This document shows positions 727 through 52,767 of a stretch of 52,767 nt of DNA, piece after piece. The stretch spans positions 1 to 52,767 of IMG/VR virus record IMGVR_UViG_3300034524_000183, one strand, 5' to 3'. The DNA comes from a virus. The notes under the pieces were generated by a model. That model saw nothing but the letters and a program-made list of their open reading frames with translations, was not told where the DNA came from and searched no databases. The first letter of the stretch is position 1, and each line of letters begins with the position of its first letter. A program made the position numbers and the translations under genes.

Positions 727-735
727 GGAGGCCGC

Positions 736-3700: not shown

Positions 3701-4188
3701 GGGTTACTGGTGATCCGATCATGTACGCTGATGGCGTTGGCCCTGATCTCTTCAGTCCTATGGCCTACAGGGAGCATAAAGGCGATGTCGTCATGGATGA
3801 ACTTGCCCGTCTCGACTACGGCTTTGAACCTCCAAGCAGGAAGCTCATGAACCTCGTGGAGCTTTCCTCGGCACAGTATTCCAGACTGAACGAGCTGCAT
3901 GGAAAGGTTCGCATCGGGCGGTACACCCTGCATCAACGCCTTGAAAAGCTCTTCAAATCAGACCGTTACGACATTGAACGCAAACGCTTCCTCGACGGAC
4001 CTGACGCCAGTCCACGTCTGGATGCCGTGAAGAAGGTCATCCGTTCCTATCGCAAGGCCGCGACACGTGCGCTGCTTAGTGAGGATCGCGAACTCCTCAT
4101 GGCAGTCGAGCAAGCACGGCGTTCAAAACTGTTACAGAAACGAGGAAAAGCCGCTGAGTTGGATAATCTGCGGCAGATCGGACAATAA
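736..4188 (+). CDS. Large internal virion protein (T7 gp16-position)
   Basis: This 1150-residue protein sits directly before the tail fibre, the position of T7 gp16, the ejected inner-core protein that helps carry DNA across the envelope. It starts at an ATG behind an AAGGAGG-type ribosome binding site. The N-terminal 80 residues are Gly/Pro/Glu-rich. Residues of about 110-150 and 210-225 are small-residue-rich and could contact membrane, and Glu/Lys-rich stretches at about 225-260 look helical. I do not see the lytic transglycosylase motif of T7 gp16, so that activity may be missing or lie in the upstream gene. The call is by position, size and composition. Confidence 0.65.
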   Translation: MALELIGIEGIDIGPEAHIPGQEEITEAGGVTPPASSLSTGPEEDSPGFFGTAADMGKGVVGGVRDAAQETMDFGLDVLNLVDDHTFNVLPEEIPEEYRLPDIETNTTAGRITRGISQFAAGFVGAGKFLKAAKVLQGAGKGVALARGMAQGAITDTVAFDPHEDRLSNLIEEYPSLSNPVTQYLAADEDDSNAEGRFKNALEGVLAGGAVDVFMKTVKGVKALRAVKGSKAEVEVAEQAVKEVEEAVAKAKEPKTTVDTELRDADGEIVDGSTVELTEIAKIELHAEKVDGNRAAFDHESYFKLLKENQGLSREEIIEQHGRDLFNLSKFEGTDGTLNALKEMSSLIHPQTLKGRTGRETFEQIDENAVSYLKDAFDTDGTTLIDSVTKLAGDMEQATTLMHTAKMYSQYLGSEIEKTTAKIAANLEPGVTMKDALSGDHPMSTEILRLVKLNEQLENLSLGFSGIRTASARVTAAGRMGVQNLTWNVIKHGNEATHREIIEKLNINPKKMERYLKAVQAADKGDVHALYRLSKMGWQGRFWDLHNEYWINSVLSGFRTQTVNMTSNALKSAITPASKILGGWRMGDKELMREGMATYMGFRKFALDSVKMAAKAFKMEANILDPVYTIMDSPTHAWSRETVYQMAEAKGVKPNEKLATAFDWLGKAIRLPSRMLLTGDELFKQLNYRADLYARLYRQGVALYGDDAARIAQHVEDNFDKWFTKHGAGKAEQSLAYARETTWTQELVRGSLGHTIQTVPAKHPWLRPVLPFVRTPVNIVNDMFMHTPGINRLMKQYKADIAAGGERAAMAKGKEALGSLFWGAAVVMASEGTITGGGPKDKNLRDRLYETGWQPYSIKVGDKYYSFSRFDPYGMFLGLAADFAMIAREAPENEANTLAVGMITALSNNLMSKTYLKGLADTLNVITNPEMHGEKFLQRQAATYVPFSSAAGQLRQETDSMMREVRSVADAFMNKIPGFSDDLPARRSWVTGDPIMYADGVGPDLFSPMAYREHKGDVVMDELARLDYGFEPPSRKLMNLVELSSAQYSRLNELHGKVRIGRYTLHQRLEKLFKSDRYDIERKRFLDGPDASPRLDAVKKVIRSYRKAATRALLSEDRELLMAVEQARRSKLLQKRGKAAELDNLRQIGQ

Positions 4189-4192
4189 ACTA

Positions 4193-4223
4193 GGAAGCCC
4201 CGGTGGAAACACTGGGGCTTTCC
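4193..4223 (+). terminator. Intergenic hairpin before the tail fibre gene
   Basis: GCCCCGGTG, a GAAA loop and CACTGGGGC form a stem of about 9 bp with one G-T pair, extended by flanking GGAA/TTCC pairing. It lies between the stop of the internal virion protein and the fibre start. No long T run follows, so it may be an attenuator or RNA-processing site rather than a full terminator. Confidence 0.5.
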
Positions 4224-4245
4224 TCATTCTAGGAGAAGTTCACAA

Positions 4246-7200
4246 ATGGCACTGAGTTACGATGTATTCCAGTCCGACGGCTCCAATCCGATCTTCAACC
4301 TCTCCTTCGAGTACATTGACCGTGCTCATGTGAAAGTGAAGATCGACGGCGTGGAGGTCAACGAAGCTGGCTATACTTTCGAGTGGCTTAATAGCCAGTC
4401 TATCAAGCTCTCGCCCACGCCGCCGCAGGGAGCGTCTATCAAACTCTATCGAGAGACGCCTCGTGACGCCCGTCTGATTGACTTCAAAGACGGCACGACG
4501 ATGCAGGAAGAAGACCTCGACACTGCCATCAACCAACAGTTCTTCCTCATGCAGGAAGTGCTGGATGCGTCTGTGGGTGACGCGATCATGGCGGCTTATG
4601 AGGATACAGTTCGACATTACAACCTCACCCTTGGCGTTAAGGCTGACATCGAAGCTCTCAAGCTGGAGATCGAGGGGCATATCGCAACCGAACACCAGCT
4701 TGTCGAAAAGGCTCGTCAGTGGGCTGAGAACCCTGAAGACGCCGCAGTTGAGGAAGGAGCGTATTCTGCCAAGCATTGGGCAGCTAAAGCGAAAGCACAG
4801 ACGGACAAGGCCATCGCCGAACGTGAAGCCGCAGGCTTCCCCTTGTGTGAGGCTTCCAAGGCAGGGAACCTGCTTCGCCTGAAAGATGATGCCAGTGGAT
4901 ACGAGTTCTTCAAACTTGCTCCCAATGGTCCGGGTATTAGGAACACCATCCTCTCCGGGTGCGTAAAAGACGGCTATCCTGCCTTTCTCGTTGGTCCTGA
5001 GTTCCTGAACATGGAACACGAAAACAACGTGAAGCATTCCAAAATCGGCACAGTCTCCGCTTCGGCTATCTACAACGGTACTTACAATGAAGTGAAGCCG
5101 CTTAGGAACCAAGTCGTATGGGAAAGCAATGGATGGCTGACACCCAACGGTCAACGGGCAGGCTGGTGGCAGTACGACTTCACCAGTGCGCATGTTCTCG
5201 TTGGTATGTTCATGATCCCCTACGATAACCAGCAGGGCCAGTGTCCCAAGGACTGGGAGCTTCTCGGTTGGAACGGTGATGGCTGGGACATGATCTACTC
5301 CCGCACGAGCGATCAAGGCCAGCGTGGGTACAATTCCAACGCCAAGACTGATGGGCGCATGTATTGGTTCACAGAGAACACCAAAGCGTACAAGCGTGTT
5401 CGTTTGAACGTAAAGGACGTTATTGGTGATTCAAACAACAGAATCAACATTGCCGCGATCCGCTTCTATGAGGCGGTGATCCCCGGACAACACAAGTACG
5501 ACGTGGCTCTCTACGCCTCGAACGACATCCCGTTCATGGCATCTGTAGCCTGCGGATACGATGAAGAGAAACGTCCTGTGGACAAACCGTACCGCTTCAC
5601 GTCCCCTGTGAACATTGACGGGAACAAGTTCGCGGAGATGTCCCGCAACTACGTCTATCTGGTTCCGGCTGAAAAGGACGGCAGTCTCCCTGCGAATCTC
5701 AATCCCGCAAAGGCTACCAAGATCGCAGGTCATGATGCCTTCCTCTATGTGGACACCCGTCAGGTTCACTACGGCTCCGTGAGCGACATCGAACGTCAGA
5801 ACATTGGGTTGCTGCAAAGTCGGCATGAGGTTGATTACAACCCTGTTCCGAACGGCGATTTTGAGCACAACATGAACTGGTACGGAAATCCCATCGACTT
5901 CACCAACGTCCGTGTGTTCACCTCTGAACCTCATCGAGGAGCACCTTCGTCTTACCACTTTGACGGAGGGAACAACTATATCCATACAGCGAAGCAACTG
6001 GAGGGTGTGTTCAAGAACAAGAGCTACCATCCGTATGGGCAGGACTTTACGATGGAGATTGACTTCAAGTTCGAGGGCAACGCTCCTGAGTCGTCCGACA
6101 GCTACTACATTCTCTTCGACAATGGGTATAACAATAACAAAGGAATGGGCGTCCACTACTGGAACCGGCGAAAAAGTTTCAGTCTGCACTGGAACACAGA
6201 CCAGTTCTACCACATTCCTTTCGATGCTTCAGACAGGCAGTGGCACACGCTGGCTGTGTCGAAGAAGGGTTCTCGCCTGTTCATGCACGTGGACGGGAAG
6301 TGCCTTGGAGCATTTAACGATGTTCCAGACATCAACCAGTATTACCGTGGATGGATGCTTGGGCGGTGGTGGCACAAAGACGGTGGCAGGTGGATCGGGT
6401 GCCTGAACAACTTCCGGTACACCGTAGGCTCGTGCCTGTACCAAGGCGAAGACTATGAGGTAACGCCTACGTTCTCAAGATCACTGATCCCGCACAAGAC
6501 GTTGTGGTACGACGCTGGTGAGGGTGTCGTCAAAGAATGGGACGCTTTCGCTGAAAAGTGGACGGCGACTCCAATGCTACCGCTTGGACACGTGGAGACT
6601 GGTTTCAAGGAGCATCTCCTCACAGACCAACCCCGTGGTACTCATCATATCCGACAGACGAAGTGGATCGTTCCTGACGGCTACGCTGCTTCAAGTAGCT
6701 ACGATGGAAACCACACGCCTGAGAGCCTGTTCAACTTCGGACACGGCGGGGAGTACCCATACAGCACAACGACAACCGCACACACTGAAGATCATTACGT
6801 CCAATTCACGCTTGAGAAGCCAATGGCGTTCGAGCGTTTCGTGCTCTGCAACACGACATGGGACTGGCGGGCGTTCCCTGCGAAGTTCAAAGTGTTCGGA
6901 TCAAACCAGAATGGCGTATGGGAACTTCTTGTGGATCGTCAGGCTCCTAAAGCAGAAGACGGAGGAGCCGCTCACAACTGTCCCAAGTCGCATGGCAACT
7001 CCCATCACGTCACTTTCTACAAGCACTTCCAGATCACGAACACCAAGCCCTACCGGACAATCCGTATAAATCTGCCCAACAAAGGTGATGTTCCATTCTA
7101 CGCGGATTTCGACAGGACGGCCTTCCGCATGACCATGACCTTCGCTGGTGCAAAGCCGGAAGTTGAGAAGATCACGTCCTATGCCATTGGTGGCAGCTTC

Positions 7201-7524
7201 TCCATAGGGCCGATCCCTATCGACGTGAACCAGAACTACAGATTCGAGGTTCCGTTTGGAGGTGCGCCGTTCAATGTCGTCGGATACGTGGAAGAACAGT
7301 GGGACTTCCAAAGCAAGAGGCGTTTGCTTGGGCAAGCCAGTACACACAACGCAAACGGCTATCAAGGCTATGGGGAGCTTGTATACATTGAGCAGGATGC
7401 CATCACTGTGCAGACTCTCAAAGACTACATCTCCTTCTACACGGGGAACGTGTGGAACTGTCCTTCTGTGAACGTGGCAAGCACGAAAGCGAACCTCTAC
7501 CTCAAAGCTGAAAGGAGGTGGTAA
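4246..7524 (+). CDS. Tail fibre protein with T7 gp17-like head and sugar-binding modules
   Basis: The first 120 or so residues (starting MALSYDVFQSDG and including the NQQFFLMQE segment) match the T7 gp17 tail-attachment domain. A short helical linker follows (about 120-200). The rest is a chain of likely carbohydrate-binding folds. An F5/8-type-C-like beta region lies at about 285-410. A LamG/concanavalin-like jellyroll lies at about 543-740, with SYHFDGGNNYI, QDFTMEIDFKF and WHTLAVSK segments. A second F5/8-type-C-like region lies at about 818-955, and a C-terminal domain follows. At 1092 residues it is about twice T7 gp17. It probably binds a surface polysaccharide on the host; no depolymerase active site is evident. 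Its TAA stop overlaps the next ATG. Confidence 0.85.
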   Translation: MALSYDVFQSDGSNPIFNLSFEYIDRAHVKVKIDGVEVNEAGYTFEWLNSQSIKLSPTPPQGASIKLYRETPRDARLIDFKDGTTMQEEDLDTAINQQFFLMQEVLDASVGDAIMAAYEDTVRHYNLTLGVKADIEALKLEIEGHIATEHQLVEKARQWAENPEDAAVEEGAYSAKHWAAKAKAQTDKAIAEREAAGFPLCEASKAGNLLRLKDDASGYEFFKLAPNGPGIRNTILSGCVKDGYPAFLVGPEFLNMEHENNVKHSKIGTVSASAIYNGTYNEVKPLRNQVVWESNGWLTPNGQRAGWWQYDFTSAHVLVGMFMIPYDNQQGQCPKDWELLGWNGDGWDMIYSRTSDQGQRGYNSNAKTDGRMYWFTENTKAYKRVRLNVKDVIGDSNNRINIAAIRFYEAVIPGQHKYDVALYASNDIPFMASVACGYDEEKRPVDKPYRFTSPVNIDGNKFAEMSRNYVYLVPAEKDGSLPANLNPAKATKIAGHDAFLYVDTRQVHYGSVSDIERQNIGLLQSRHEVDYNPVPNGDFEHNMNWYGNPIDFTNVRVFTSEPHRGAPSSYHFDGGNNYIHTAKQLEGVFKNKSYHPYGQDFTMEIDFKFEGNAPESSDSYYILFDNGYNNNKGMGVHYWNRRKSFSLHWNTDQFYHIPFDASDRQWHTLAVSKKGSRLFMHVDGKCLGAFNDVPDINQYYRGWMLGRWWHKDGGRWIGCLNNFRYTVGSCLYQGEDYEVTPTFSRSLIPHKTLWYDAGEGVVKEWDAFAEKWTATPMLPLGHVETGFKEHLLTDQPRGTHHIRQTKWIVPDGYAASSSYDGNHTPESLFNFGHGGEYPYSTTTTAHTEDHYVQFTLEKPMAFERFVLCNTTWDWRAFPAKFKVFGSNQNGVWELLVDRQAPKAEDGGAAHNCPKSHGNSHHVTFYKHFQITNTKPYRTIRINLPNKGDVPFYADFDRTAFRMTMTFAGAKPEVEKITSYAIGGSFSIGPIPIDVNQNYRFEVPFGGAPFNVVGYVEEQWDFQSKRRLLGQASTHNANGYQGYGELVYIEQDAITVQTLKDYISFYTGNVWNCPSVNVASTKANLYLKAERRW

Positions 7525-7781
7525 TGCGCCAGATCACTTGGCTCAGGCCAGATGGAAAGACCTATGTCTCGCCTACTCAGGCTTCACAGAGTGATGTCGC
7601 CATTCCTGACACCCCCGGCGCGGACTTCAGTTTCAACCGGGAGAGGTGGGAGTGGGAACGTGTCTACGAGGCTCCTGCCCCTAACGACATCACCGTTCCC
7701 GAAGCAGAGGAACTCTGGCGTCTGGCCCACGAAGAAAACAACGCAATGGCCTCAGTGCTGCTCAAGCACCTGAACCTGTAA
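7524..7781 (+). CDS. Small protein downstream of the tail fibre, unknown function
   Basis: I chose the ATG at 7524, which overlaps the fibre stop as TAATG and has AAGGAGG 6 bases upstream. The 85-residue product begins MRQITWLRPDGKTYVS and ends in a helical, Glu/Asn-rich segment. Its coupling to the fibre gene suggests a fibre-associated role, for example an assembly chaperone, or simply a small virion protein. No family was recognised. Confidence 0.6.
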   Translation: MRQITWLRPDGKTYVSPTQASQSDVAIPDTPGADFSFNRERWEWERVYEAPAPNDITVPEAEELWRLAHEENNAMASVLLKHLNL

Positions 7782-7785
7782 ATAC

Positions 7786-7815
7786 AAGGGTGGGAGTGTA
7801 AAAGCTCCTGCCCTT
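7786..7815 (+). terminator. Hairpin between the fibre operon and the lysis gene
   Basis: AAGGGTGGGAG and CTCCTGCCCTT form an 11-bp stem with two wobble pairs around an 8-base loop, followed by a CTTCTTC pyrimidine stretch. It is probably a weak terminator or an RNA-processing hairpin. Confidence 0.5.
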
Positions 7816-7834
7816 CTTCATAGAGGAGAACTAA

Positions 7835-8140
7835 ATGGCAGCACACGAGTGCGTCCAAGGTCCAAAACTTGAGAGTCTTGAGGCTGCTATCGGAGATATT
7901 CGTGAAGGCCAGAAAAAGACTGACGGGAAATTAGATAAGATCACTGAGCTTCTCGTCTCGGATGCGCACACCCAAGAACAGCTCAAGCATATAAAGGAAA
8001 CACAGCGTGACCATGAAGACCGTTTACGATCTGTGGAAACACGCACAAACACGAACTCAGGGTTCACTACACGTGCTGAACGCTTCTTCTGGATCGTGGT
8101 AACGGGCGGCATCGGAACCCTTTGGTATATTGCGAGGTAA
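7835..8140 (+). CDS. Holin-like protein (coiled coil plus C-terminal membrane segment)
   Basis: The first 70 residues are charged and heptad-like, and the last 20 or so (FFWIVVTGGIGTLWYI) form one membrane segment with a short basic end. This XhlA-like architecture, and a location between the fibre and the terminase small subunit, match the T7 gene 17.5 lysis slot. It would permeabilise the inner membrane at lysis. The start is an ATG behind AGAGGAG. The endolysin of this phage is not in the window. Confidence 0.6.
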   Translation: MAAHECVQGPKLESLEAAIGDIREGQKKTDGKLDKITELLVSDAHTQEQLKHIKETQRDHEDRLRSVETRTNTNSGFTTRAERFFWIVVTGGIGTLWYIAR

Positions 8141-8143
8141 ATC

Positions 8144-8401
8144 ATGAGCAAAGCAACCACGAACGATCTTGCTGATCTGCATGGCATGTTCACCGAAGCT
8201 CTCGCCAAGAAACTGAAGAACGGCGATTTCACGTCTGCCGACCTCAGTGTCATTCGCCAGTTCCTGCGTGATAATGGCATCGAGTGTGACGGTGAACGTA
8301 ATGACGGCATCCAAGACCTTGTTGACTCCCTGCCTTCCTACGACTCCGATGAGGATGGAGCAGGTATGTCCTGCGGTCCTGATGGATGCCACCTGAATTA
8401 G
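8144..8401 (+). CDS. Terminase small subunit, DNA maturase A (T7 gp18-like)
   Basis: The 85-residue acidic protein has a helical DLHGMFTEALAKKL...VIRQFLRDNGIE core typical of podovirus DNA maturase A. It sits immediately upstream of the gp19-type large subunit, separated only by a terminator hairpin. It would recognise and present concatemeric DNA to the packaging motor. The C-terminus is Asp/Gly/Cys-rich, with two Cys residues whose role is unknown. Confidence 0.78.
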   Translation: MSKATTNDLADLHGMFTEALAKKLKNGDFTSADLSVIRQFLRDNGIECDGERNDGIQDLVDSLPSYDSDEDGAGMSCGPDGCHLN

Positions 8402-8430
8402 GCCCAAATTCGCCTTCTAAGCCCTTTTGA

Positions 8431-8472
8431 GGAGGAGGATGACTTGTACGTCGTCTTCCTCCTTTTCTTTTG
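8431..8472 (+). terminator. Rho-independent terminator between maturase A and B
   Basis: GGAGGAGGATGAC, a TTGTAC loop and GTCGTCTTCCTCC form a 13-bp stem with two wobble pairs, followed by TTTTCTTTTG. The long reading frame of the next gene runs back into this hairpin, which is one reason to reject a start at 8444. Confidence 0.85.
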
Positions 8473-8533
8473 TCTAACGTCAAATTTAGGCGTCTTTCGA
8501 ACATCTAAAGCTATCCACCAAGGAGATAATCAC

Positions 8534-10267
8534 GTGAGTGTATTAGGTGGCACTATAGAACCCCTCCCGAAGAAGCTCCAAGACTTTCGTGTCTTTCTCA
8601 CAATGGTGTGGCGTCACCTGAACCTTCCTGATCCCACACCCGTCCAGCTCGATATTGCGCACTGGCTCCAGCACGGTCCACGCCGTAAAATCATCGAGGC
8701 ATTCCGAGGCGTCGGTAAGTCGTGGATCACTTCAACCTACGTTGTCTGGAAAGGGCGCATGTATCCCAACAGGAAGTTCCTTGTCGTCTCTGCGTCGAAG
8801 GAGCGCGCCGATAACTTCACCACATTCACCCTTCGTCTCATCAATGAAATCCCTGTGCTCCAGTGTCTTCGACCTCGCACCGACCAGCGTTGCTCCAAGG
8901 TGAGCTTCGACTTTGGCCCTGCGAAAGCCGACCATGCTCCTAGCGTCAAAAGCGTCGGTATCTTCGGACAGCTTGCTGGATCACGTGCAGACGAAATCAT
9001 CCCTGACGATATCGAGGTTCCCAACAACGCCTTCACGCAGTCCATGCGGGACAAGCTCAGTGAGGCCGTGAAGGAGTTCGATGCAATCCTGAAGCCGGGA
9101 GGTTCTATCAACTTCCTCGGCACACCTCAGACAGAGCAGTCGCTCTACAACCTTCTTCAGGATCGAGGGTACCAGACGCGCATCTGGCCTGCCCGTTATC
9201 CTGAACCTAGCGATGGCATCTATACCGACTGTCTGGCTCCGATGATCGCCGAACCGCTTACGGCTGCGGACGGTCACAAGATGGTCGGCAAGCCTACCGA
9301 TCCTCTACGGTTCAATGAGGACGACCTCATAGAGCGAGAACTGTCGTATGGACGCTCTGGCTTCGCCCTTCAGTTCATGCTGGACACCCGGCTGTCCGAC
9401 GCGGATCGCTATCCACTCAAGCTCTCCGACCTGATCGTAATGAACCTTTCGCCCAATGAAGCCCCGGAGAAAGTGGTATGGGCAGCATCCCCTGAGCTGG
9501 TTCATGACGATCTCGCCTGTGTGGGACTGAATGGGGACAGGTACTACCGCCCGATGTGGCTTGCCAACAACTGGATAGACTACAACGGAAGCGTCATGGC
9601 TATCGACCCATCTGGTCGTGGTCAGGACGAAACGTCCTATGCCGTGGTCAAAATGCTCAACGGCTTCCTGTATGTCACAGACGCAGGTGGGATCGCAGGT
9701 GGCTACTCCGATGAAACGCTGGTCAAGCTGGCGAACATCGCGAAGGAGCAGAAAGTGAACAAGCTGGTGATCGAATCGAACTTCGGTGACGGCATGTTCA
9801 CGGAACTTCTCAAACCTCACCTGCGGCGCATTTACCCGGTAGGTATTGAAGAGGTCCGTCACAACATCCAGAAGGAGCGACGCATCATCGACACCCTTGA
9901 ACCTGTCATGAACCAGCATCGTCTTGTGATCGACAAGAAGGTGATCCAGCAGGATTACGCCTCGACAAAGCACCTCCCGCCTGAGAAGGCACTCAAGTAC
10001 CAGCTCTTCTACCAGATGAGCCGCATCACCTTTGAGAGAGGCTCTCTGGCACACGACGACCGCCTCGACGCTCTTGCCATCGCTGTGGGCTACTGGGTGA
10101 ACCAGATGGCTCAGGACGTGGACATCAAGGTCAAGCAGCGTCAGGAAGAGCTACTCGACAAGGAACTTGAGGTCTTCCTCGGTCACGCTGGCGCAGGCAT
10201 GGATATGGCAGTGGTTGTGGGCGTTGATAACTGCCCGGAATCATTGGATGGGCCTACTTGGATATGA
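8534..10267 (+). CDS. Terminase large subunit, DNA maturase B (T7 gp19-like)
   Basis: This is the ATPase/nuclease motor that packages DNA into proheads. The GTG at 8534 has AAGGAGAT upstream and gives MSVLGGTIEPL and 577 residues, close to the 586 of T7 gp19. The Walker A segment FRGVGKSW lies at about residues 57-64, followed by a VVSASKERAD stretch shared with gp19. The C-terminal nuclease region has AIDPSGRGQDET (metal-binding Asp) near residue 360 and AHDDRLDALAIAVGYW near the end. A phage-type promoter motif lies within its first codons. Confidence 0.95.
   Translation: MSVLGGTIEPLPKKLQDFRVFLTMVWRHLNLPDPTPVQLDIAHWLQHGPRRKIIEAFRGVGKSWITSTYVVWKGRMYPNRKFLVVSASKERADNFTTFTLRLINEIPVLQCLRPRTDQRCSKVSFDFGPAKADHAPSVKSVGIFGQLAGSRADEIIPDDIEVPNNAFTQSMRDKLSEAVKEFDAILKPGGSINFLGTPQTEQSLYNLLQDRGYQTRIWPARYPEPSDGIYTDCLAPMIAEPLTAADGHKMVGKPTDPLRFNEDDLIERELSYGRSGFALQFMLDTRLSDADRYPLKLSDLIVMNLSPNEAPEKVVWAASPELVHDDLACVGLNGDRYYRPMWLANNWIDYNGSVMAIDPSGRGQDETSYAVVKMLNGFLYVTDAGGIAGGYSDETLVKLANIAKEQKVNKLVIESNFGDGMFTELLKPHLRRIYPVGIEEVRHNIQKERRIIDTLEPVMNQHRLVIDKKVIQQDYASTKHLPPEKALKYQLFYQMSRITFERGSLAHDDRLDALAIAVGYWVNQMAQDVDIKVKQRQEELLDKELEVFLGHAGAGMDMAVVVGVDNCPESLDGPTWI
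8541..8558 (+). promoter_or_regulatory. T7-RNA-polymerase-like promoter motif
   Basis: TATTAGGTGGCACTATAG matches the T7 consensus TAATACGACTCACTATAG at 13 of 18 positions, including the whole CACTATAG initiation end. It lies just after the GTG of the terminase gene, so it would drive a transcript lacking that start. Related motifs occur at 10300 and 10355, and a weaker one near 11748. Confidence 0.6.
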
Positions 10268-10299
10268 TGGCTGTAACAGCCTGAAATAAAAGAGGATTC

Positions 10300-10317
10300 A
10301 ATTAGGTTGCACTAACA
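10300..10317 (+). promoter_or_regulatory. T7-RNA-polymerase-like promoter motif, degenerate initiation end
   Basis: AATTAGGTTGCACTAACA agrees with the motif at 8541 at 14 of 18 positions, with near-identity in the recognition half ATTAGGT-GCACTA, but lacks the TATAG end. It may be a weakened promoter or a pause/packaging signal near the genome end. Confidence 0.4.
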
Positions 10318-10354
10318 AGGGGGAAGGAAGGAAGGCAAGAAAGAATGAACACTT

Positions 10355-10372
10355 AGTAAAGTTGTACTATAG
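10355..10372 (+). promoter_or_regulatory. T7-RNA-polymerase-like promoter motif
   Basis: AGTAAAGTTGTACTATAG shares 12 of 18 positions with the motif at 8541, including ACTATAG. A perfect 7-bp dyad follows 4 bases downstream. By position it resembles a T7 right-end promoter. Confidence 0.45.
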
Positions 10373-10469
10373 TTAAACTTAGGACAACCTAAGTAGCCTT
10401 CTTCTATGCTCTTCCCTCCATCCTTCTTTCTTATTGCTTCCTCCTTCTTCCTCTTCAACCTGTATCCTT

Positions 10470-10498
10470 GGGTGGCTTACGATTGACGTAGGCTACCC
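10470..10498. terminator. Hairpin downstream of the minus-strand lipoprotein gene
   Basis: GGGTGGCTTACG and CGTAGGCTACCC form a 12-bp stem with two wobble pairs around a 5-base loop, 5 bases beyond the lipoprotein stop. It could end transcription from either side, although neither strand has a good T run. Confidence 0.5.
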
Positions 10499-10503
10499 TT
10501 GGA

Positions 10504-10905
10504 TCATTCCTGAGATGAAGCAGCAGAAAAGAACTCTCTCATCGTATATGGATCATTGCACTCCGATCCCTTGGGGATGATCTTCTCAATGGTCTTTGAA
10601 TCAGAGGCAGTGATGACTGTCACCTTGCACGTACACGTCCAGTTCGCTCCTTCGAGCGTCGAGTAGTCGTTTGTGTGCTCATAATCGAGGACAGTACGTC
10701 CGTCTTCTAGTTTCGATGAACGAATAGGCGTTCCCCAAGTCAACATGAGATCATCCGTGGAACGGCCTATCCACGTGTCGAGGTGCGCCTTCGTTTGCTG
10801 AGGTGTCAGCTTCTGGTAAGTGGCACAGCCTCCAGTGGATAACGCAAGGGTGAGAGCTAGCAGAACAGAGGCAGCTACACCCTTGAATGACGATTTCTGT
10901 GTCAT
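10504..10905 (-). CDS. Putative lipoprotein moron
   Basis: The 133-residue product starts at an ATG with AGGAGGT 6 bases upstream. The first 27 residues form a signal peptide (MTQKSSFKGVAASVLLALTL, then STGGC), so the mature protein would be lipidated at Cys28. The rest resembles small outer-membrane SmpA/OmlA-like lipoproteins in shape (LDTWIGRSTDDLMLTWGTP). It is transcribed against all neighbours, has its own promoter and a downstream hairpin, and lies at the joined genome ends. That suggests a moron expressed in the lysogen, perhaps altering the cell surface or excluding other phages. Function is inferred only from form and position. Confidence 0.75.
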   Translation of the reverse strand: MTQKSSFKGVAASVLLALTLALSTGGCATYQKLTPQQTKAHLDTWIGRSTDDLMLTWGTPIRSSKLEDGRTVLDYEHTNDYSTLEGANWTCTCKVTVITASDSKTIEKIIPKGSECNDPYTMREFFSAASSQE

Positions 10906-10942
10906 GCAGGTACCTCCTGTGGTTGTGATAATGATGTCGGTA

Positions 10943-10971
10943 TGTTTACTGCGGGTGAGGGCGAGGATCAA
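10943..10971 (-). promoter_or_regulatory. Sigma-70-type promoter of the lipoprotein gene
   Basis: On the minus strand TTGATC is followed after exactly 17 bases by TAAACA, about 40 bases before the ATG. Confidence 0.5.
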
Positions 10972-11311
10972 GTCCCGGCTATTTTGGGTGAAAAATGTGA
11001 GACGCTTTCACGCTATGTGAATGAGCGATTTCCCCCCATAGGCTCCGTGGTGTCGCTGTGGCGGTCGATTTGACCAGCTCCAGCCGTCCATGAAAGCACG
11101 TCTTGCAACGTGGATTTGCAACAAAAGCCGCGCAAGCCCTGCCATTCCTACATTCCAAGGAGATAATATATCTCTTCACATTACCTTATAAGGCACGGCA
11201 AGGTGGTATTGTGCCTTCCTTCCTATTGATCCGGCTTATCTGTTCAATCGGCTTTTTCGTTCTTTCCTGTCTTTATCAGTGTTTTCAATGGCTTTACGTC
11301 TTCTTTCGATA

Positions 11312-11335
11312 TTTGCAACAAAATCCCTTGACAAA
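11312..11335 (+). repeat. 24-bp direct repeat, copy 1 (promoter-bearing)
   Basis: The 24 bases begin TTTGCAAC and end CCCTTGACAAA. They recur exactly at 11438-11461, 126 bases downstream. Each copy contains an 8-base TTTGCAAC motif 8 bases ahead of a TTGACA box. Confidence 0.9.
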
Positions 11336-11356
11336 CTATGCGAAGCTGTATAGATT
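11328..11356 (+). promoter_or_regulatory. Early promoter P1
   Basis: TTGACA at 11328-11333 is followed after 17 bases by TAGATT at 11351-11356. TATAGA with 15-base spacing is an alternative. TTTGCAAC lies just upstream and could be an operator or activator site. Confidence 0.6.
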
Positions 11357-11437
11357 AAAAGCCAACGAAGCGAAGGACTGAAAACAAAAGGCTTTCGCTA
11401 GTTCATTGAAAGACAGTCGAAAGAAGTGATTCGAAAG

Positions 11438-11461
11438 TTTGCAACAAAATCCCTTGACAAA
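11438..11461 (+). repeat. 24-bp direct repeat, copy 2 (promoter-bearing)
   Basis: This is an exact copy of 11312-11335, again carrying TTTGCAAC and TTGACA. Confidence 0.9.
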
Positions 11462-11482
11462 GCGAAGAGGGTAAGGCAAGAT
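11454..11482 (+). promoter_or_regulatory. Early promoter P2
   Basis: TTGACA at 11454-11459 lies in the second copy of the repeat. A weak -10 (CAAGAT, 11477-11482) follows after 17 bases. Confidence 0.45.
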
Positions 11483-11600
11483 AAGAATCACGAAAGGCGG
11501 CAAAGGCCAGACGACGACGCAGGAAGTAAGCGCGACTTGAAGACAGTGACAGCCTCTTCCTGCAAGACTACAGGCCACAAGCCGCTAAATTAAAGGCTTC

Positions 11601-11615
11601 AACTATCCACCTACG
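11601..11615 (+). repeat. AACTATCCACC repeat, copy 1 (divergent)
   Basis: AACTATCCACCTACG is the most divergent of three copies of an element found in non-coding DNA ahead of the early genes. Confidence 0.6.
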
Positions 11616-11663
11616 CAAGTAACGCGGAAGTGAAGCCGAAGACTGGAGACAAGACAACGCTCT

Positions 11664-11691
11664 TTGACAATTGAATAGTGATAAATACTAG
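11664..11691 (+). promoter_or_regulatory. Early promoter P3
   Basis: TTGACA at 11664-11669 is followed after 16 bases by TACTAG. It is the third TTGACA box in 340 bases, all pointing toward the early operon, but it lacks the upstream TTTGCAAC motif of P1 and P2. Confidence 0.45.
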
Positions 11692-11804
11692 CGATTCGAG
11701 TAAATGGAACTGTTACGCTACAGGTTGTCCTCTCACGTAAGGTCAACCATAGGTGCCGCTAGTGGGAACGCTAACGGTACCGCTTGGTTGATTTTATTTT
11801 AAAC

Positions 11805-11824
11805 TTAACTATCCACCTTCGTGA
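11805..11824 (+). repeat. TTAACTATCCACCTTCGTGA repeat, copy 2
   Basis: This 20-base element is identical to the copy at 12911-12930. It lies about 40 bases before the first early gene. The CCACCTTC core could pair with purine-rich ribosome binding sites, or the element could be a protein-binding site. Confidence 0.8.
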
Positions 11825-11865
11825 ACAACGCTAGTGTGGACATGCGAAGAAAAGGAGAAAGACAA

Positions 11866-12066
11866 ATGACCAGCTTTGATAGCCTTACAAAGGCAGAATT
11901 ACGTTGCAAACTCCGCGCCTACTTCGGTCCTCGCAACTACCGTATTAGTAATGACGGTGCAGTTTACGGGAATGAAAGCGGGCATGGTTGGTACTACCTC
12001 GGGCGTCTTGAGGTTGTTGATAATGAAATAACACGTGAACACGGAAGCGTGTGGCGTGTCAGATAA
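11866..12066 (+). CDS. Small early protein, unknown
   Basis: The ATG at 11866 follows AAAGGAGAAAGACAA, a better start than the GTG at 11821, which lies inside a repeat. The 66-residue product begins MTSFDSLTKAELRCKLRAYF and has a mixed alpha/beta look. It is the first gene of the early operon, ahead of two further small genes and ardA. No family was recognised. Confidence 0.65.
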   Translation: MTSFDSLTKAELRCKLRAYFGPRNYRISNDGAVYGNESGHGWYYLGRLEVVDNEITREHGSVWRVR

Positions 12067-12083
12067 AGAAGGAGAATACAGAC

Positions 12084-12344
12084 ATGCAGTTTTATCTAGC
12101 GCACGGCTTCGGAATATCAAATATGCCTAAACGCCTTGAATCGGTGCAGCACCGTGTGAAGGCAGTACGTGGGCTGCGTATTCCGGCAAGTGGATACGGC
12201 AAAGACATACCGACGGAATACATGATCAAGTGGGAAGGACGTTGGTACCGTGTTTACGCAATGCAGTATAGCAACTGCCCGACAACCTACATAAAAACTA
12301 AACACGCGGAAAATGGGCGCATAATCGTTGATATTCACAACTAA
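12084..12344 (+). CDS. Small early protein, unknown
   Basis: The 86-residue basic product starts at the ATG at 12084 behind GAAGGAG. It is Tyr- and Lys-rich and contains MIKWEGRWYRVYAMQYSNCP. It lies 17 bases after the previous gene and 13 before ardA, so it is part of the same early operon. No family was recognised. Confidence 0.65.
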   Translation: MQFYLAHGFGISNMPKRLESVQHRVKAVRGLRIPASGYGKDIPTEYMIKWEGRWYRVYAMQYSNCPTTYIKTKHAENGRIIVDIHN

Positions 12345-12357
12345 AGGAGTAACAGCC

Positions 12358-12897
12358 ATGACAAGCGAATACAGAATCTACGTTGCAAGCCTTTCCGACT
12401 ACAACAACGCTGTTCTTCACGGACGTTGGATTGACATAGACGGATCAACAACGGTTGAAGAGGTGTGGGACGAAGTAAACGAAATGCTGAAAGAATCGCC
12501 TACGGCAAAGAAATACGGCGAGAAAGCGGAAGAATGGGCCGTTCATGACTACGAAGGCTTTCACGGCTTAGGCTTAGGTGAATGGGACGGCTTTGAGACA
12601 TTTATCAAACACGCTGAAATGCTCGAAGAATACGGCGAGGCTTGGCGCGTGTATGTCGGCTTCGTTGGAAGTGACTACGCGACGAAAGAGAACTTCGAGG
12701 ATAGTTATCGCGGAACGTACAAAGATGAAGAGGACTTTGCTTACGAGCTGGTTGACGAGCTTGGCTATCTCGACAACGTGCCGGATACCGTCAGGAACTA
12801 CTTCGATTATGAAAAGTTTGCACGAGACTTGTTCATGACGGATATGTACGGCGAACACGGTGAAGATGGCGAGTTCTATGTTTTCTGGCGCAACTAG
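12358..12897 (+). CDS. ardA: Antirestriction protein ArdA
   Basis: ArdA proteins are elongated DNA mimics that block type I restriction-modification enzymes when DNA enters a cell. The 179-residue product has the family's opening segment (YRIYVASLSDYNNAVLHGRW), a GLGLGEWDGFE segment, and the acidic C-terminal part with DSYRGTYKDEEDFAYELV and FDYEKFARDLFMTDMYGE. The protein is strongly acidic, as expected. Its place in the early operon, directly after the tandem promoters, is that of T7 gene 0.3 (Ocr), an unrelated DNA mimic with the same job. The start is the ATG behind AAAGGAG. Confidence 0.93.
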   Translation: MTSEYRIYVASLSDYNNAVLHGRWIDIDGSTTVEEVWDEVNEMLKESPTAKKYGEKAEEWAVHDYEGFHGLGLGEWDGFETFIKHAEMLEEYGEAWRVYVGFVGSDYATKENFEDSYRGTYKDEEDFAYELVDELGYLDNVPDTVRNYFDYEKFARDLFMTDMYGEHGEDGEFYVFWRN

Positions 12898-12910
12898 GAT
12901 ACGTGCGCCA

Positions 12911-12930
12911 TTAACTATCCACCTTCGTGA
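12911..12930 (+). repeat. TTAACTATCCACCTTCGTGA repeat, copy 3
   Basis: This copy lies in the gap between ardA and the next early gene and is identical over 20 bases to the one at 11805. It marks the start of a second block of early genes. Confidence 0.85.
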
Positions 12931-12952
12931 CAAAAGCGGTTGTGTATTCATA

Positions 12953-12979
12953 AGGGCCGGATGAAAGCCGTCCGGTCCT
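12953..12979 (+). other. Hairpin in the early transcript
   Basis: AGGGCCGGA and TCCGGTCCT pair over 9 bp with one wobble around a 9-base loop. No T run follows, so an RNase III-type processing site, as between T7 early genes, is more likely than a terminator. Confidence 0.4.
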
Positions 12980-13017
12980 CATTGAATCCACAACACTTAA
13001 TCAAAGGAGAACAAATC

Positions 13018-13329
13018 ATGGCCATAGAAGGAACAATCATTCACGGAACCATGCGCAATCAAGACTTAATCCCTGCTTTCCTCGACGTAGCGCGGGAAAT
13101 TGCTCCAGCCGAATACACACAAATGGTATCCGCGCCGTTCAGTCCGGTACCGTCCTATGCGCTTGAAGATGATAGCGCGGAATGGTGGACGAGTGACGAA
13201 GCGCACTACCTGCTTGAAGAGTTGTTCGAGCTGCTCAACCTGTACGCTCCAGAAGGCTTCTACTTCGGCGCACATGAAGGCGATGGCAGTGATTACGGTT
13301 TTTGGGAAATGCCTAATAGTGACAACTAA
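13018..13329 (+). CDS. Acidic early protein, unknown
   Basis: The 103-residue product starts at the ATG behind AAAGGAGAACAAATC. It is very acidic (for example SYALEDDSAEWWTSDEA and LLEELFELLNLYAPEG), which resembles DNA-mimic inhibitors, and it follows ardA. An anti-defence role is a guess from charge and neighbourhood; no family was recognised. Confidence 0.65.
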   Translation: MAIEGTIIHGTMRNQDLIPAFLDVAREIAPAEYTQMVSAPFSPVPSYALEDDSAEWWTSDEAHYLLEELFELLNLYAPEGFYFGAHEGDGSDYGFWEMPNSDN

Positions 13330-13343
13330 AGGAGAACGTGACC

Positions 13344-13760
13344 ATGAATCAGGTTTTCGACAACTACGTGTGTGCTGGTGAATATATCGAACGTGAACTG
13401 GATGGCTTCAAATTCCGCGCAACACTCGCCTACGACGACGTAACGACACCAATGGACTATGACGAGGCCGGATGCTGTTTTGACACGTCAGACCCTGAAT
13501 ACGGCGAAGAAAACAAGGAGATAATCGCCTCTTGGAAGCGCGACGAATGGTTCTACGTCGGAATAGTCGTATCGGTTGAGTATAACGGTGTACTCCTCGA
13601 CGATCATATTCACTCCGTATGGGGCTACGAGGCGAACTTTCCCAACGGCGATAATTCCTACCTCACGGAAGAAGCTACTCGCCTGATGGAAGAGGCACTC
13701 GACGACGCGAGAAAGGCACGTGAAGAAATGATCGCAAGACTTATCGGTAAGGCGGCATGA
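13344..13760 (+). CDS. Acidic early protein, unknown
   Basis: I chose the ATG at 13344, 10 bases after GGAG; a GTG two codons upstream is possible. The 138-residue product is acidic, with a beta-rich first half (FYVGIVVSVEYNGVLLDD) and a helical C-terminus (EEATRLMEEALDDARKAREE). Its spacing of 14 bases from the previous acidic gene suggests co-expression. A joint anti-defence function is possible but not shown by any motif. Confidence 0.65.
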   Translation: MNQVFDNYVCAGEYIERELDGFKFRATLAYDDVTTPMDYDEAGCCFDTSDPEYGEENKEIIASWKRDEWFYVGIVVSVEYNGVLLDDHIHSVWGYEANFPNGDNSYLTEEATRLMEEALDDARKAREEMIARLIGKAA

Positions 13761-13769
13761 TTTATCCAA

Positions 13770-13801
13770 GATGGCGGGAGCTTGAACAGGTTCCCGCTAT
13801 C
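13770..13801 (+). other. Hairpin at the end of the first early block
   Basis: GATGGCGGGAG and TTCCCGCTATC form an 11-bp stem with two wobbles around a 10-base loop. It lacks a T run and may be an RNA-processing site or a weak terminator before the next promoter. Confidence 0.45.
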
Positions 13802-13838
13802 GAAAGATAAAATATGACGATTCTATGAAGAAAGTCAG

Positions 13839-13866
13839 TTGACACTTCTTTACGTGTGATTAGCTT
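13839..13866 (+). promoter_or_regulatory. Putative sigma-70 promoter before the regulatory genes
   Basis: TTGACA at 13839-13844 is followed after 16 bases by TAGCTT. It would serve the genes at 13927-15688, including the MarR-like regulator and the integrase. Confidence 0.45.
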
Positions 13867-13926
13867 TGCACTCTCGCGAAGGTAACACTACTGCATACAA
13901 TTTAAACCCTCACAAGGAGGACAACC

Positions 13927-14139
13927 GTGGTTGAACGCGCCGTTGACTGCCTTCGATTTGTGCTTATCAAGTTTGGTCTGATCGAAGAGTTGTGTTACTG
14001 GTTCTCCAGTGATACACCTGCGGGAAAGTTCTTTGAGTGTGAAAAACACGATGGCGAATACTTCGTGTGGATTGGTCGGCATAACCTGATAATCGCCCCG
14101 AAAGATTGGAGCGCATACAGGAGTGCTAAACAGCAATGA
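13927..14139 (+). CDS. Small protein, unknown
   Basis: The gene starts at a GTG behind AAGGAGG and encodes 70 residues (MVERAVDCLRFVLIKFGLIE...). The first 25 residues are fairly hydrophobic. It lies ahead of the MarR-like regulator with 32 bases between. No family was recognised. Confidence 0.55.
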   Translation: MVERAVDCLRFVLIKFGLIEELCYWFSSDTPAGKFFECEKHDGEYFVWIGRHNLIIAPKDWSAYRSAKQQ

Positions 14140-14171
14140 AGTGTGTGTACGTAAACTAGGAGGCTTCGGTA

Positions 14172-14543
14172 ATGAAGAAGATGCAGAACACGTTTAACCT
14201 GCTGATGGAACTCTACAACCTTCCCAAGCCGGGAGACACAAACCCCGACAGAAACCCCGGAATGCCGATCCAGATGGCTGCTGTTTTTCTTTACGTTGCC
14301 ATGCACGACGGCTGCACAATGAAACAAATCGCGGAGGTTTTGGGACTGTCACAGGCCAGTGCATCTCGAAATTGCCAAGCATTAGGAAAGTACCAGAAAC
14401 AAGGCAAGCTCGGCTACGATTTGGTCGAGACGGTCGATGATCCGGCAGAACGACGGCGTAAGATAGTAAAGCTGACGCGAAAAGGTAAGCGTTTGGCGGC
14501 ACGGCTTGCTGAAATGATCGGCGAAGATGGCCTGAAGTTCTAA
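14172..14543 (+). CDS. MarR-like winged-helix transcription regulator
   Basis: The 123-residue protein has a winged-helix layout. Its recognition region reads TMKQIAEVLGLSQASASRNCQAL (about residues 54-76) and is followed by a beta wing rich in charged residues (ERRRKIVKLTRKGKRLAARL). Location 42 bases upstream of the integrase suggests that it controls integration or the lysogeny decision. No S24-type or CI-type repressor is seen in the visible part of this prophage, so this protein is a candidate for that role. Confidence 0.75.
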   Translation: MKKMQNTFNLLMELYNLPKPGDTNPDRNPGMPIQMAAVFLYVAMHDGCTMKQIAEVLGLSQASASRNCQALGKYQKQGKLGYDLVETVDDPAERRRKIVKLTRKGKRLAARLAEMIGEDGLKF

Positions 14544-14584
14544 GGAGGAGACAACCACCAAATACAAAGGAGGAAATTCGTAAA

Positions 14585-15688
14585 ATGGCGAGAAAAGCAA
14601 CAACGACGAAAAACACTCAAACATTACCGAGAGGTATCCGGCTTCGCAACGGTCGGTTCTTTGTGGACGTAATGGTTAAGGGGAAGCGCAAGACAGCAAC
14701 TTGCGCAACCCTTGAAGAAGCAATCACTCGACGGACAGAACTCAAGGAGGCTCTCAAGCGCGGCCTCGACGGGAAGAACGAGGAAAAGGCGGTAACTGGC
14801 GGCTGGACGCTCAACCAAGCCCTTCAGTACACCATACGGCACCACTGGGCTGGTACTGGTGGAGAAGAAAAAGCTGTCATCAACGCAAACTATGCGGTCC
14901 GCTTCTTTGGCCCTGACAAGCCTCTTGATAAAATCGACAGCCTTGCACTGGATGAATACAAGGAATGGTTGATTGAAGAGCACAACAACTCAAACGCTAC
15001 GATCAATCGCAAGATGTCGGCGTTGTCCAAGTTGTTTACGATGGCAATCGAACGCGGAAAGCTCAAGGCGAAACCCAAGTTCCCGCGCTTGAAAGAAACA
15101 GGTGGCAGAATCCGCTTCTTGAGCGAGGACGAAGAGCGTGTATGCGTAAACCTGCTCAAGCAGTGGAGCCTCGACGACCATGCTGATGCGTTCGTGATAC
15201 TGATAGACACAGGAATGCGTCCTTCGGAGCTGTGGCGGTTGAAACTCAATGACATTGACTTCAACACTGGCCTCATCTCAATATGGGAGAACAAGACCGA
15301 CAATCCGCGCTCTATTGCAATGACCAAAAGAGTGGTGGAAACAATCCGCACACGCCTAGATGAACTCCCTACGCGTATTGTTGGCGACGAAGACCATCTT
15401 GTATGGGACGGGGTTACACTCTTCCCCAACGCTACGAACTATTGGTTTGAACGTGTCTGGAACAAGGTGAAGCACGTGATGAAACTGGACGACGACGAAC
15501 AGTTCGTTCCATATGCACTGCGACACACTTGCTGTTCGCGGTTGATACAGCGTGGTGTGCCTCTCAAACACGTCAAGGATTGGATGGGACACAAAGCCAT
15601 CCAAACCACAATGAGGTATGCCCATCTCGCGCCCCAAGACATGAAGTCTTTGGCGTCGGTTTTAGAGTCGAAGGAGGCGCGGTGGTAA
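14585..15688 (+). CDS. int: Tyrosine-family site-specific integrase
   Basis: The 367-residue recombinase has an N-terminal arm-binding region (RNGRFFVDVMVKGKRKTA), a SAM-like core-binding domain (about 74-170) and a catalytic domain. Catalytic residues visible are Arg in DTGMRPSEL (about 211), HxxR replaced by the usual ALRHTCCSRL context (about 311-318), MGHKAIQTTMRYAH (second His, about 335) and the Tyr nucleophile in MRYAH (about 344). It ends just before arm-like repeats and a tRNA-Leu, so it is the enzyme that integrated this prophage. AAAGGAGG lies a little far (about 12 bases) from the ATG. Confidence 0.95.
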   Translation: MARKATTTKNTQTLPRGIRLRNGRFFVDVMVKGKRKTATCATLEEAITRRTELKEALKRGLDGKNEEKAVTGGWTLNQALQYTIRHHWAGTGGEEKAVINANYAVRFFGPDKPLDKIDSLALDEYKEWLIEEHNNSNATINRKMSALSKLFTMAIERGKLKAKPKFPRLKETGGRIRFLSEDEERVCVNLLKQWSLDDHADAFVILIDTGMRPSELWRLKLNDIDFNTGLISIWENKTDNPRSIAMTKRVVETIRTRLDELPTRIVGDEDHLVWDGVTLFPNATNYWFERVWNKVKHVMKLDDDEQFVPYALRHTCCSRLIQRGVPLKHVKDWMGHKAIQTTMRYAHLAPQDMKSLASVLESKEARW

Positions 15689-15749
15689 AACTGGACTTGC
15701 GTTGTGTAGGGATTTAAAGTAACCGTCAATCCCGGTTTTTCCGGCAGTG

Positions 15750-15798: not shown

Positions 15799-15887
15799 GC
15801 CGGAGTGGTGAAACTGGTATACACATCGGACTTAAAATCCGAAGATCATTAATGATCGTGCGGGTTCGATTCCCGCCTCCGGTACCA
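15799..15887 (+). tRNA. tRNA-Leu (anticodon UAA), phage-borne
   Basis: An 89-base cloverleaf with long variable arm can be folded. The acceptor stem is GCCGGAG/CTCCGGT, the anticodon stem TCGGA/TCCGA with loop CTTAAAA (anticodon TAA at its centre), and the T-arm GCGGGTTCGATTCCCGC; CCA is encoded. It lies inside the prophage, between int and the attachment junction. Its sequence differs from that of the neighbouring tRNA-Leu fragment, so it is not simply the host gene. Confidence 0.92.
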
Positions 15888-51514: not shown

Positions 51515-51702
51515 CCGTGCAGGCGCAGTTGCCGCTGGTGTGGGCACAGCTTGTTGAGCTGGCAGCCATTAACACCACATGGATGGACCAGGGCCTGCCG
51601 CTTTCTGATCCGCAGCAGTTGCTTGATGTCGCTGCCAAGATGGATGCGATGGCCGGAGAGATCCGGATTCTCGCTCAGCTCGTGGAGGCAGGCCATGCCT
51701 AA
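51499..51702 (+). CDS. Small early protein, unknown
   Basis: The 67-residue product starts at the ATG at 51499, behind GGAGGGG, and overlaps both neighbours by 16 and 8 bases. It is helical (PQQLLDVAAKMDAMAGEIRILAQ). Confidence 0.6.
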   Translation: MAAELTVQAQLPLVWAQLVELAAINTTWMDQGLPLSDPQQLLDVAAKMDAMAGEIRILAQLVEAGHA

Positions 51703-52072
51703 CGTGCCATGCGATCAATGCGGCAAGGAATTCCACGCCTCCCCCAGCAGGCTTGCTGCCGGTGCACGCTACTGCTCCCGCGCCTGCTATCAGGAGGCGA
51801 ATAAGCGCATGGCGGACGGCGAGTGCGCATGGTGCGGCAAGGTGTTTAAGAAGCAGAACTCACGCCAGAAACACTGCTCCACCGATTGTGCCCGATCCGC
51901 CCAGCAGGATGCTGCACGGAACACCGTTCTGGCAAAGCAGATAGCCGCTGCCAAGGGCCGTTCCAGTTCCGGTTTCGGGCTCTTTGACGACCCGTGGACC
52001 ACCGGAGATGTGAAGCCCGACCGCTACGGCAGAGACCTGTACCGGACGCCTGACTTCGGGCTCGGTTTCTAG
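51695..52072 (+). CDS. Protein with two C4 zinc fingers
   Basis: The 125-residue product has two treble-clef-like fingers: Cys 6, 9, 27, 31 and Cys 44, 47, 61, 65. No nuclease motif is present. The C-terminal half is flexible and ends YRTPDFGLGF. The next, unrelated protein ends in the same seven residues. It probably binds DNA or a protein partner. Confidence 0.75.
   Translation: MPNVPCDQCGKEFHASPSRLAAGARYCSRACYQEANKRMADGECAWCGKVFKKQNSRQKHCSTDCARSAQQDAARNTVLAKQIAAAKGRSSSGFGLFDDPWTTGDVKPDRYGRDLYRTPDFGLGF
52052..52071 (+). repeat. 20-bp repeat at a gene end, copy 1
   Basis: The 20 bases encoding the DFGLGF tail and first bases of the stop codon recur exactly at 52431-52450. Confidence 0.9.
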
Positions 52073-52082
52073 GGAGGCGCGA

Positions 52083-52451
52083 ATGGCCGAATCAAAAGCA
52101 GAAGGCTGGCGGCGCATTCCGGGCTTTGAGCAATACGAAATCAACATACACGGCGTTATCCGCGCTCTGCCTGCCCGGCACAAGATGGTTCGCAAGGGCA
52201 ACTTTATCGTGCTTTGGGCAGGTGGGGAGAGGGTGAAGTGCTGCATCGGCGAGATGCTGGTGCGTGCATGGGCTCCGGAGCTGGACCGCACCGGGCTGCA
52301 GATAGAGGCCCTGACGCTGGAACGCGACAAGTACAAGCGCCGCGTAGTGGAGCTGAAGGAAGAGCTGGAACGCCATGTAACGGGAGTGGCCAGCCGAAAT
52401 TTTTCTGACGGGGATTATCACAGAGAGCCGGACTTCGGGCTCGGTTTCTAA
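52083..52451 (+). CDS. NUMOD4-like protein without HNH nuclease
   Basis: Residues 5-65 resemble the NUMOD4 DNA-binding module of homing endonucleases (GWRRIPGFEQYEINIHGVIRAL...GERVKCCIGEMLVRAWAPE), but no HNH catalytic motif follows. A coiled coil lies at about 75-100, and the end reads HREPDFGLGF, shared with the upstream zinc-finger protein. It may be a nuclease relict that became a DNA-binding factor. Confidence 0.75.
   Translation: MAESKAEGWRRIPGFEQYEINIHGVIRALPARHKMVRKGNFIVLWAGGERVKCCIGEMLVRAWAPELDRTGLQIEALTLERDKYKRRVVELKEELERHVTGVASRNFSDGDYHREPDFGLGF
52431..52450 (+). repeat. 20-bp repeat at a gene end, copy 2
   Basis: This is an exact match to 52052-52071, in the same frame and position relative to the stop. 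Confidence 0.9.
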
Positions 52452-52473: not shown

Positions 52474-52767
52474 ATGACCAGAAAAGCACTTATTGAAGCG
52501 ATTCAGGACCAGCTTGCCCTCAAAAAAGAGTGGGTAACCGAAGAAACCGTTGCCTCTGTGCTTCGGGCCACCCTTGATGCCATGTCGCTGCAGCTTGCTG
52601 AGGGCGATGGGCTACAGATTCATGGCTTCGGATCATTCCGCGTTGTGGACCGCGCCGAGCGCATTGGTCGCCATCCCGGTACCGGCGAGATGATGCAGAT
52701 CCCGTTCTCGCGCACGGTGAAGTTCATCCCCAGCGCCGCGCTGAAAGACGCGGTCAACGTGATGTAG
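52474..52767 (+). CDS. HU/IHF-family DNA-binding protein
   Basis: The 97-residue protein has the HU/IHF pattern: TRKALIEAIQDQL, a GLQIHGFGSFRVVDRAERIGRHPGTGEMMQIPFSRTVKFIPS region and a C-terminal helix. It bends DNA and could assist replication, recombination or packaging. GGGAGG precedes the ATG. The stop codon ends exactly at the window edge. Confidence 0.92.
   Translation: MTRKALIEAIQDQLALKKEWVTEETVASVLRATLDAMSLQLAEGDGLQIHGFGSFRVVDRAERIGRHPGTGEMMQIPFSRTVKFIPSAALKDAVNVM

Follow-up and report, generated by a model that had tools for sequence, protein, structure and literature searches.

A C-terminal tail shared by two adjacent phage proteins is a conserved motif of a Desulfovibrionaceae zinc-finger family and a putative docking peptide

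C-terminal docking peptides, of which SSB-Ct and the clamp motifs are examples, point to the central hubs of DNA metabolism. It is typical of such a peptide to be the best-conserved segment of its protein while having no structure. The consensus for sliding-clamp binding is QLxLF or QLxLxL (PMC4564189). In the window analyzed here (IMG/VR virus record IMGVR_UViG_3300034524_000183, 52,767 bp), two neighboring genes encode a zinc-finger protein and a NUMOD4-like protein. The original prediction held that both share a C-terminal tail, that this tail resembles SSB or clamp-binding peptides, and that both proteins may be recruited through it to one partner, for example the replication machinery. 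The tail is like SSB-Ct in being a short, conserved, extreme C-terminal peptide that follows a flexible linker on a DNA-metabolism protein, and in ending with Phe preceded by an aliphatic residue two positions earlier (Leu at −3 and Phe at −1 in all tails). However, the acidic residues expected before the hydrophobic end of SSB-Ct are absent (position −4 is G, V, Y, N, W, A or H; position −5 is F, M, P, I, A, V or T, with a single E), and membership in that family was rejected. Moreover, the tail has an invariant Gly at −2 where SSB-Ct has Pro, its conserved Arg (−9) and Pro (−7) are foreign to SSB-Ct, and its carriers are not OB-fold SSBs. With the clamp motif it has in common a hydrophobic six-residue end with Leu as the fourth residue (D-x-x-L-G-F), as in the hexameric form. 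Unlike the clamp motif, it is strictly C-terminal and lacks a conserved Leu at the second position; sliding-clamp membership was rejected because every tail copy has Asp at the Gln position. The tail would work like a docking peptide, but these features do not place it in the SSB-Ct or the clamp family.

The bodies of the two proteins were likewise compared with described families. The zinc-finger units matched PHROG 1271 (HNH endonuclease) at 1.4e-13 over profile positions 178-248 of 361, and their similarity to the N-terminal zinc fingers of NinG was weak (0.004-0.11). An HNH endonuclease was rejected because the match covers the zinc fingers only and the 125 residues contain no HNH stretch, and NinG/Rap whole-family membership was rejected at 12.7 bits against a cut-off of 25.4. 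Unlike PHROG 1271 and NinG, the zinc-finger carrier has no HNH or NinG catalytic part, and its tail lies outside the matches. The N-terminal half of the second protein corresponds to NUMOD4 (PF07463). The window protein itself had no Pfam NUMOD4 match, its homologue L099 scored above the Pfam cut-off (24.1 vs 23.4 bits), and a profile of Desulfovibrionaceae NUMOD4 proteins, which included the window sequence, placed the window protein in this family at 1.6e-28. It differs from NUMOD4 proteins in having no HNH nuclease domain, and the tail is missing in the other members found. We also observed a Desulfovibrionaceae family of NUMOD4-like proteins without a nuclease domain, in which a coiled coil or zinc ribbon follows (L099-L111). 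The tail had no match in Pfam, NCBIfam, PADLOC or PDB, the PHROG matches being to the zinc fingers only, and the literal tail peptide did not occur in the papers searched. In the proposed search of phage proteins for the C-terminal tail, annotated phages yielded only noise (E > 1), and viral contigs scanned for DFGLGF contained nine matches, of which not one ended a convincing gene.

The window and its relatives are Desulfovibrionaceae phages. Relatives of a CII-like gene located 2 kb upstream occur in genomes of Desulfovibrionaceae and of other proteobacteria. Zinc-finger and NUMOD4 searches of viral contigs and a zinc-finger search of GTDB contigs revealed no close relative of the window phage. 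When HU was used to look for the locus in relatives, two distant HUs were obtained, neither with a tail next door. The record seems to be joined from two different phages: a podovirus-type part (1-15700) with internal virion protein, tail fibre, terminase and an integrase adjoining tRNA-Leu (15799-15887), and a second tailed phage (16430-52767) that carries a separate set of terminase, head, baseplate and early genes. The podovirus-type part holds two more exact direct repeats, of 24 bp (11312-11335/11438-11461) and 20 bp (11805-11824/12911-12930); the 24-mer contains TTGACA and may be promoter-related.

Both window proteins end in PDFGLGF, and the DNA identity was present as described. The exact repeat, GACTTCGGGCTCGGTTTCTA, ends within the stop codons, covering the first two bases of TAG in the zinc-finger gene and of TAA in the NUMOD4-like gene (Table 1), while the differing Pro codons, CCT and CCG respectively, lie outside the 20 bp. 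The window has two occurrences of a degenerate PDFGLGF pattern, which none of 100 dinucleotide shuffles contained. Given the amino acids, all six codons would agree by chance with a probability of ~0.006. The shuffle test and the codon agreement together rule out a chance origin of the common end. Outside the repeat, the two proteins have in common an Asp at −12 (GAC/GAT), an Arg at −9 (CGG/AGA) and the Pro at −7 (CCT/CCG), counted from the C-terminus. Furthermore, the six residues upstream of DFGLGF, which include the Pro whose CC adjoins the repeat, showed gapless similarity above that of shuffles (p ~1e-4).

Table 1. Features of the tail locus and of related loci (window positions unless a locus is named).
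Feature	Position	Strand	Details
Zinc-finger ORF	51695-52072	+	125 aa; ends ...YRTPDFGLGF
Zinc-finger protein layout	51695-52072	+	two C-x2-C...C-x3-C units, long helix, unstructured tail
Conserved C-terminal segment, zinc-finger protein	51971-52069	+	aa 93-125, ..FDDPWTTGDVKPDRYGRDLYRTPDFGLGF; predicted unstructured
Tail motif R-x-P-D-x-x-L-G-F, zinc-finger protein	52043-52069	+	RTPDFGLGF
20-bp direct repeat, copy 1	52052-52071	+	DFGLGF and TA of stop
NUMOD4-like ORF	52083-52451	+	122 aa; ends ...HREPDFGLGF; probable coiled coil (judged by eye)
Tail motif, NUMOD4-like protein	52422-52448	+	REPDFGLGF; tail in 0/14 homologous ORFs of relatives
20-bp direct repeat, copy 2	52431-52450	+	
HU-family protein gene	52474-52767	+	directly downstream of NUMOD4-like ORF
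Tail peptide			DLYRTPDFGLGF
Divergent SSB-like protein	L086 8351-8935		
Divergent SSB-like protein	L087 7027-7506		
Divergent SSB-like protein	L088 7282-7842		
Divergent SSB-like protein	L089 7978-8571		

Homologues of the zinc-finger protein were found in 23 of 288 genomes of Desulfovibrionaceae, and in many of them the best-matching part was the C-terminal 30-40 residues (60-69% identity). To avoid circularity, a profile of the body alone was built; some of the profiled loci had been fetched with the motif itself, whereas those of the first homologue search (288 genomes) had not. All 28 distinct Desulfovibrionaceae homologues matched by this profile ended in D-x-x-L-G-F-COOH, and 26 of the 28 in R-x-P-D-x-x-L-G-F; the two deviating tails, RAADPVLGF and HYADFNLGF, differ near the Arg or the Pro. 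The sole match without a tail was an unrelated HNH protein. Most homologues have the long form F-E-D-P-W-x-x-G-x-I-x-P-D-x-Y-x-x-D-L-x-R-x-P-D-x-x-L-G-F-COOH, and the others carry a shortened version. When R.PD..LGF followed by a stop was sought in the 288 genomes, 30 matches were obtained against 5 with a reversed control, and 29 of the 30 were ends of zinc-finger ORFs. No further R.PD..LGF match at an ORF end was found in a 247-genome sample of the phylum.

Mean pairwise identity was 31% in the body, 52% in the last ~30 residues and 76% in the last 9, the last value being raised by picking sequences through the motif. Codon use at the invariant tail positions varied freely (four codons each for Pro, Gly and Leu, five for Arg), so the constraint on the tail acts on the protein. 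In the synonymous-site comparison in relatives that had been proposed, the zinc-finger tail peptide was thus kept while synonymous codons varied. A pure DNA repeat, promoter or terminator element was rejected for this family, as the tail DNA differs among relatives and the peptide is kept. Within this family, the tail is thus a motif conserved at the level of the protein, and a repeat artefact does not account for it. The AlphaFold model of the zinc-finger protein, a prediction that rests on five sequences only (pTM 0.36), showed two folded zinc-finger units and a long helix, with a pLDDT of 75-87 in the body; the last 37 residues had a pLDDT of 51-57 and no secondary structure.

The NUMOD4-like protein gave a different result. 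None of 14 NUMOD4-family ORFs from Desulfovibrionaceae relatives (one prophage counted once) had the tail; their ends were SGSVAL, EWNAL, YAVDL and so on. The expectation that homologues would retain the tail held for the zinc-finger protein and failed for the NUMOD4-like protein. The DNA of the NUMOD4 tail is nearer to that of the neighboring zinc-finger gene than to any other tail. Because of this closeness and the low chance of codon identity, the NUMOD4-like protein likely gained its tail by recent DNA copying within the phage, most simply from the adjacent zinc-finger gene. The fit of D(−12), R(−9) and P(−7) outside the repeat suggests either copying of a longer stretch, followed by divergence under constraint, or selection for the fit. 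Recent local duplication, raised at the outset as a counter-explanation, best accounts for the 20-bp identity, and the NUMOD4 homologues are tailless; it does not account for the zinc-finger tail, which is a conserved motif.

The NUMOD4 tail is known from one genome and may have arisen passively by DNA copying. In the most probable alternative, which we nevertheless consider rather unlikely, the tail would be functional in the zinc-finger family, and the NUMOD4 copy would be a passive by-product of the entry of that gene into the operon: 20 bp would have been duplicated by an insertion next to the 3′ end of the zinc-finger gene, and the incoming ORF would by chance have run in frame into the duplicated end. 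It is consistent with the absence of the tail from NUMOD4 homologues, with the nearness of the copy to the neighbor's DNA and with the position of the repeats, which bracket the NUMOD4 ORF exactly like an insertion-made duplication. However, the frame is correct, D(−12), R(−9) and P(−7), which lie outside the repeat and use different codons, match the family consensus, and the Mu-like phage L118 (described below) offers a comparable case in which the body was swapped and the tail kept, all of which argue against a passive origin. A tailed zinc-finger gene of the Mu-like prophage G028:C15 is overlapped at its start by a NUMOD4-like gene, in the reverse order of the window (L076 7361-8456). The combination of NUMOD4 and zinc finger thus recurs in two different phages. 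The NUMOD4 protein of G028:C15 has no tail.

Scans of the viral collection with the R.PD..LGF pattern returned zinc-finger genes, short chance ORFs and one real other gene, encoding a CI-type HTH protein of L118 that ends in RRPDFHLGF. The L118 transposase shows ~50% identity over its length to prophages of the genomes G028 and G033, and its identity to known phages does not exceed 26%; going by this protein, L118 is a phage of the Desulfovibrionaceae host group. Its tailed HTH gene lies between a Gam-like gene and a 'KF.ICVK' gene, with an HU gene between HTH and 'KF.ICVK'; HU thus directly follows the tailed HTH gene, as HU follows the NUMOD4-like ORF in the window. In G028:C15, a tailed zinc-finger gene is located directly before the same 'KF.ICVK' gene, and in G033 the HTH gene at the syntenic position is tailless. 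Because the L118 HTH gene holds the slot of the tailed zinc-finger gene of G028:C15 and its G033 relative is tailless, the tail appears to stay while the body is exchanged. L118 is a single case among 15 non-zinc-finger matches in two whole-collection scans; by our estimate, one real gene end among those 15 has an a priori chance of perhaps 15-25%, before its Desulfovibrionaceae origin and its synteny are taken into account. Beyond the zinc finger, the tail is carried by at least one unrelated DNA-binding scaffold and probably by two, namely NUMOD4 in the window and the CI-type HTH protein in L118.

Members of the tailed zinc-finger family are encoded in the early regions of phages and at a single conserved chromosomal locus, which contains an S24 repressor and an AlpA-like gene. 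Elsewhere, the tailed genes adjoin CI/S24 repressors and CII in three loci (L075, L079 and L081) and replication-initiator and DnaB-type genes in three others (L077, L078 and L080), and one follows HU and dUTPase (L091). Genes near the zinc-finger gene include those for primase, HU, dUTPase, DnaB-type helicase and a replication-initiator-like protein, several of the neighbor-gene assignments having been made by eye from translations. The prophage at L091 (1712-2769) has a D5-type primase, HU and dUTPase, and its one-finger zinc protein still ends in DFNLGF. In several species, the tailed zinc-finger gene of the chromosomal locus has near it a gene for a divergent SSB-like protein that lacks the C-terminal tip of SSB. 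From gene context we infer that replication or recombination proteins are favored over transcription proteins as the recruiting partner; recruitment to the replication machinery, as originally predicted, is a guess from the same context.

Taken together, we consider it probable that R-x-P-D-x-x-L-G-F-COOH is a C-terminal docking peptide (short linear motif) of the Desulfovibrionaceae small zinc-finger family, with a putative binding function. The free carboxylate, Phe(−1), Leu(−3) and Asp(−6) would be seated in a pocket of one partner common in Desulfovibrionaceae, and different phage DNA-binding proteins would thereby be brought to the same machine. The predicted likeness to docking peptides is borne out in general character, as the tail is the best-conserved part, has fixed C-terminal spacing, is predicted to be unstructured and occurs on unrelated scaffolds; it is not borne out in the specific form of SSB-Ct or the clamp motif. 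A C-terminal degron, by which a host protease (ClpXP, Lon or a tail-specific protease) would keep early phage regulators short-lived, would fit a hydrophobic, unstructured C-terminus on regulatory DNA-binding proteins. We regard it as improbable: the tail, with R, P and D strictly conserved as far as nine residues from its end, is more specific than the known small hydrophobic ends of ssrA-like degrons, and a conserved chromosomal locus also retains the zinc-finger family. A little less probable still is that the tail acts within the molecule or in a homo-oligomer by binding the zinc-finger domain itself, in which case the tailed NUMOD4 protein would join a zinc-finger complex. The NUMOD4 and zinc-finger genes do adjoin in two different phages (window and L076), but the tail has no structure and low confidence in the AlphaFold model, and it is kept when the body is one finger (L091) or is replaced (L118). 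A strict SSB-Ct mimic (aliphatic at −3, Phe at −1) or a sliding-clamp motif (Leu at the fourth of six positions, as in hexameric QLxLxL) is very improbable, as 0 of 27 distinct tails has an acidic cluster at −4/−5 or Gln at −6, and the host SSB of these genomes ends in MDDVPF.

Beyond the docking peptide itself, we tentatively propose a broader reading, of which we are less than evenly confident: RxPDxxLGF-COOH may be an undescribed C-terminal docking code common to Desulfovibrionaceae phages and their hosts and read by a host hub protein, with the phages keeping the code and exchanging the DNA-binding body (zinc finger, NUMOD4 or CI-type HTH) in the same operon slot. Within the genomes searched, the tail is confined to a single bacterial family, and it would have moved between unrelated phage proteins. 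The window may then capture a docking tail shortly after its transfer to an adjacent gene, with the donor still beside it. If true, a new docking peptide would point to a hub that phages exploit and could be used as bait to find that hub.
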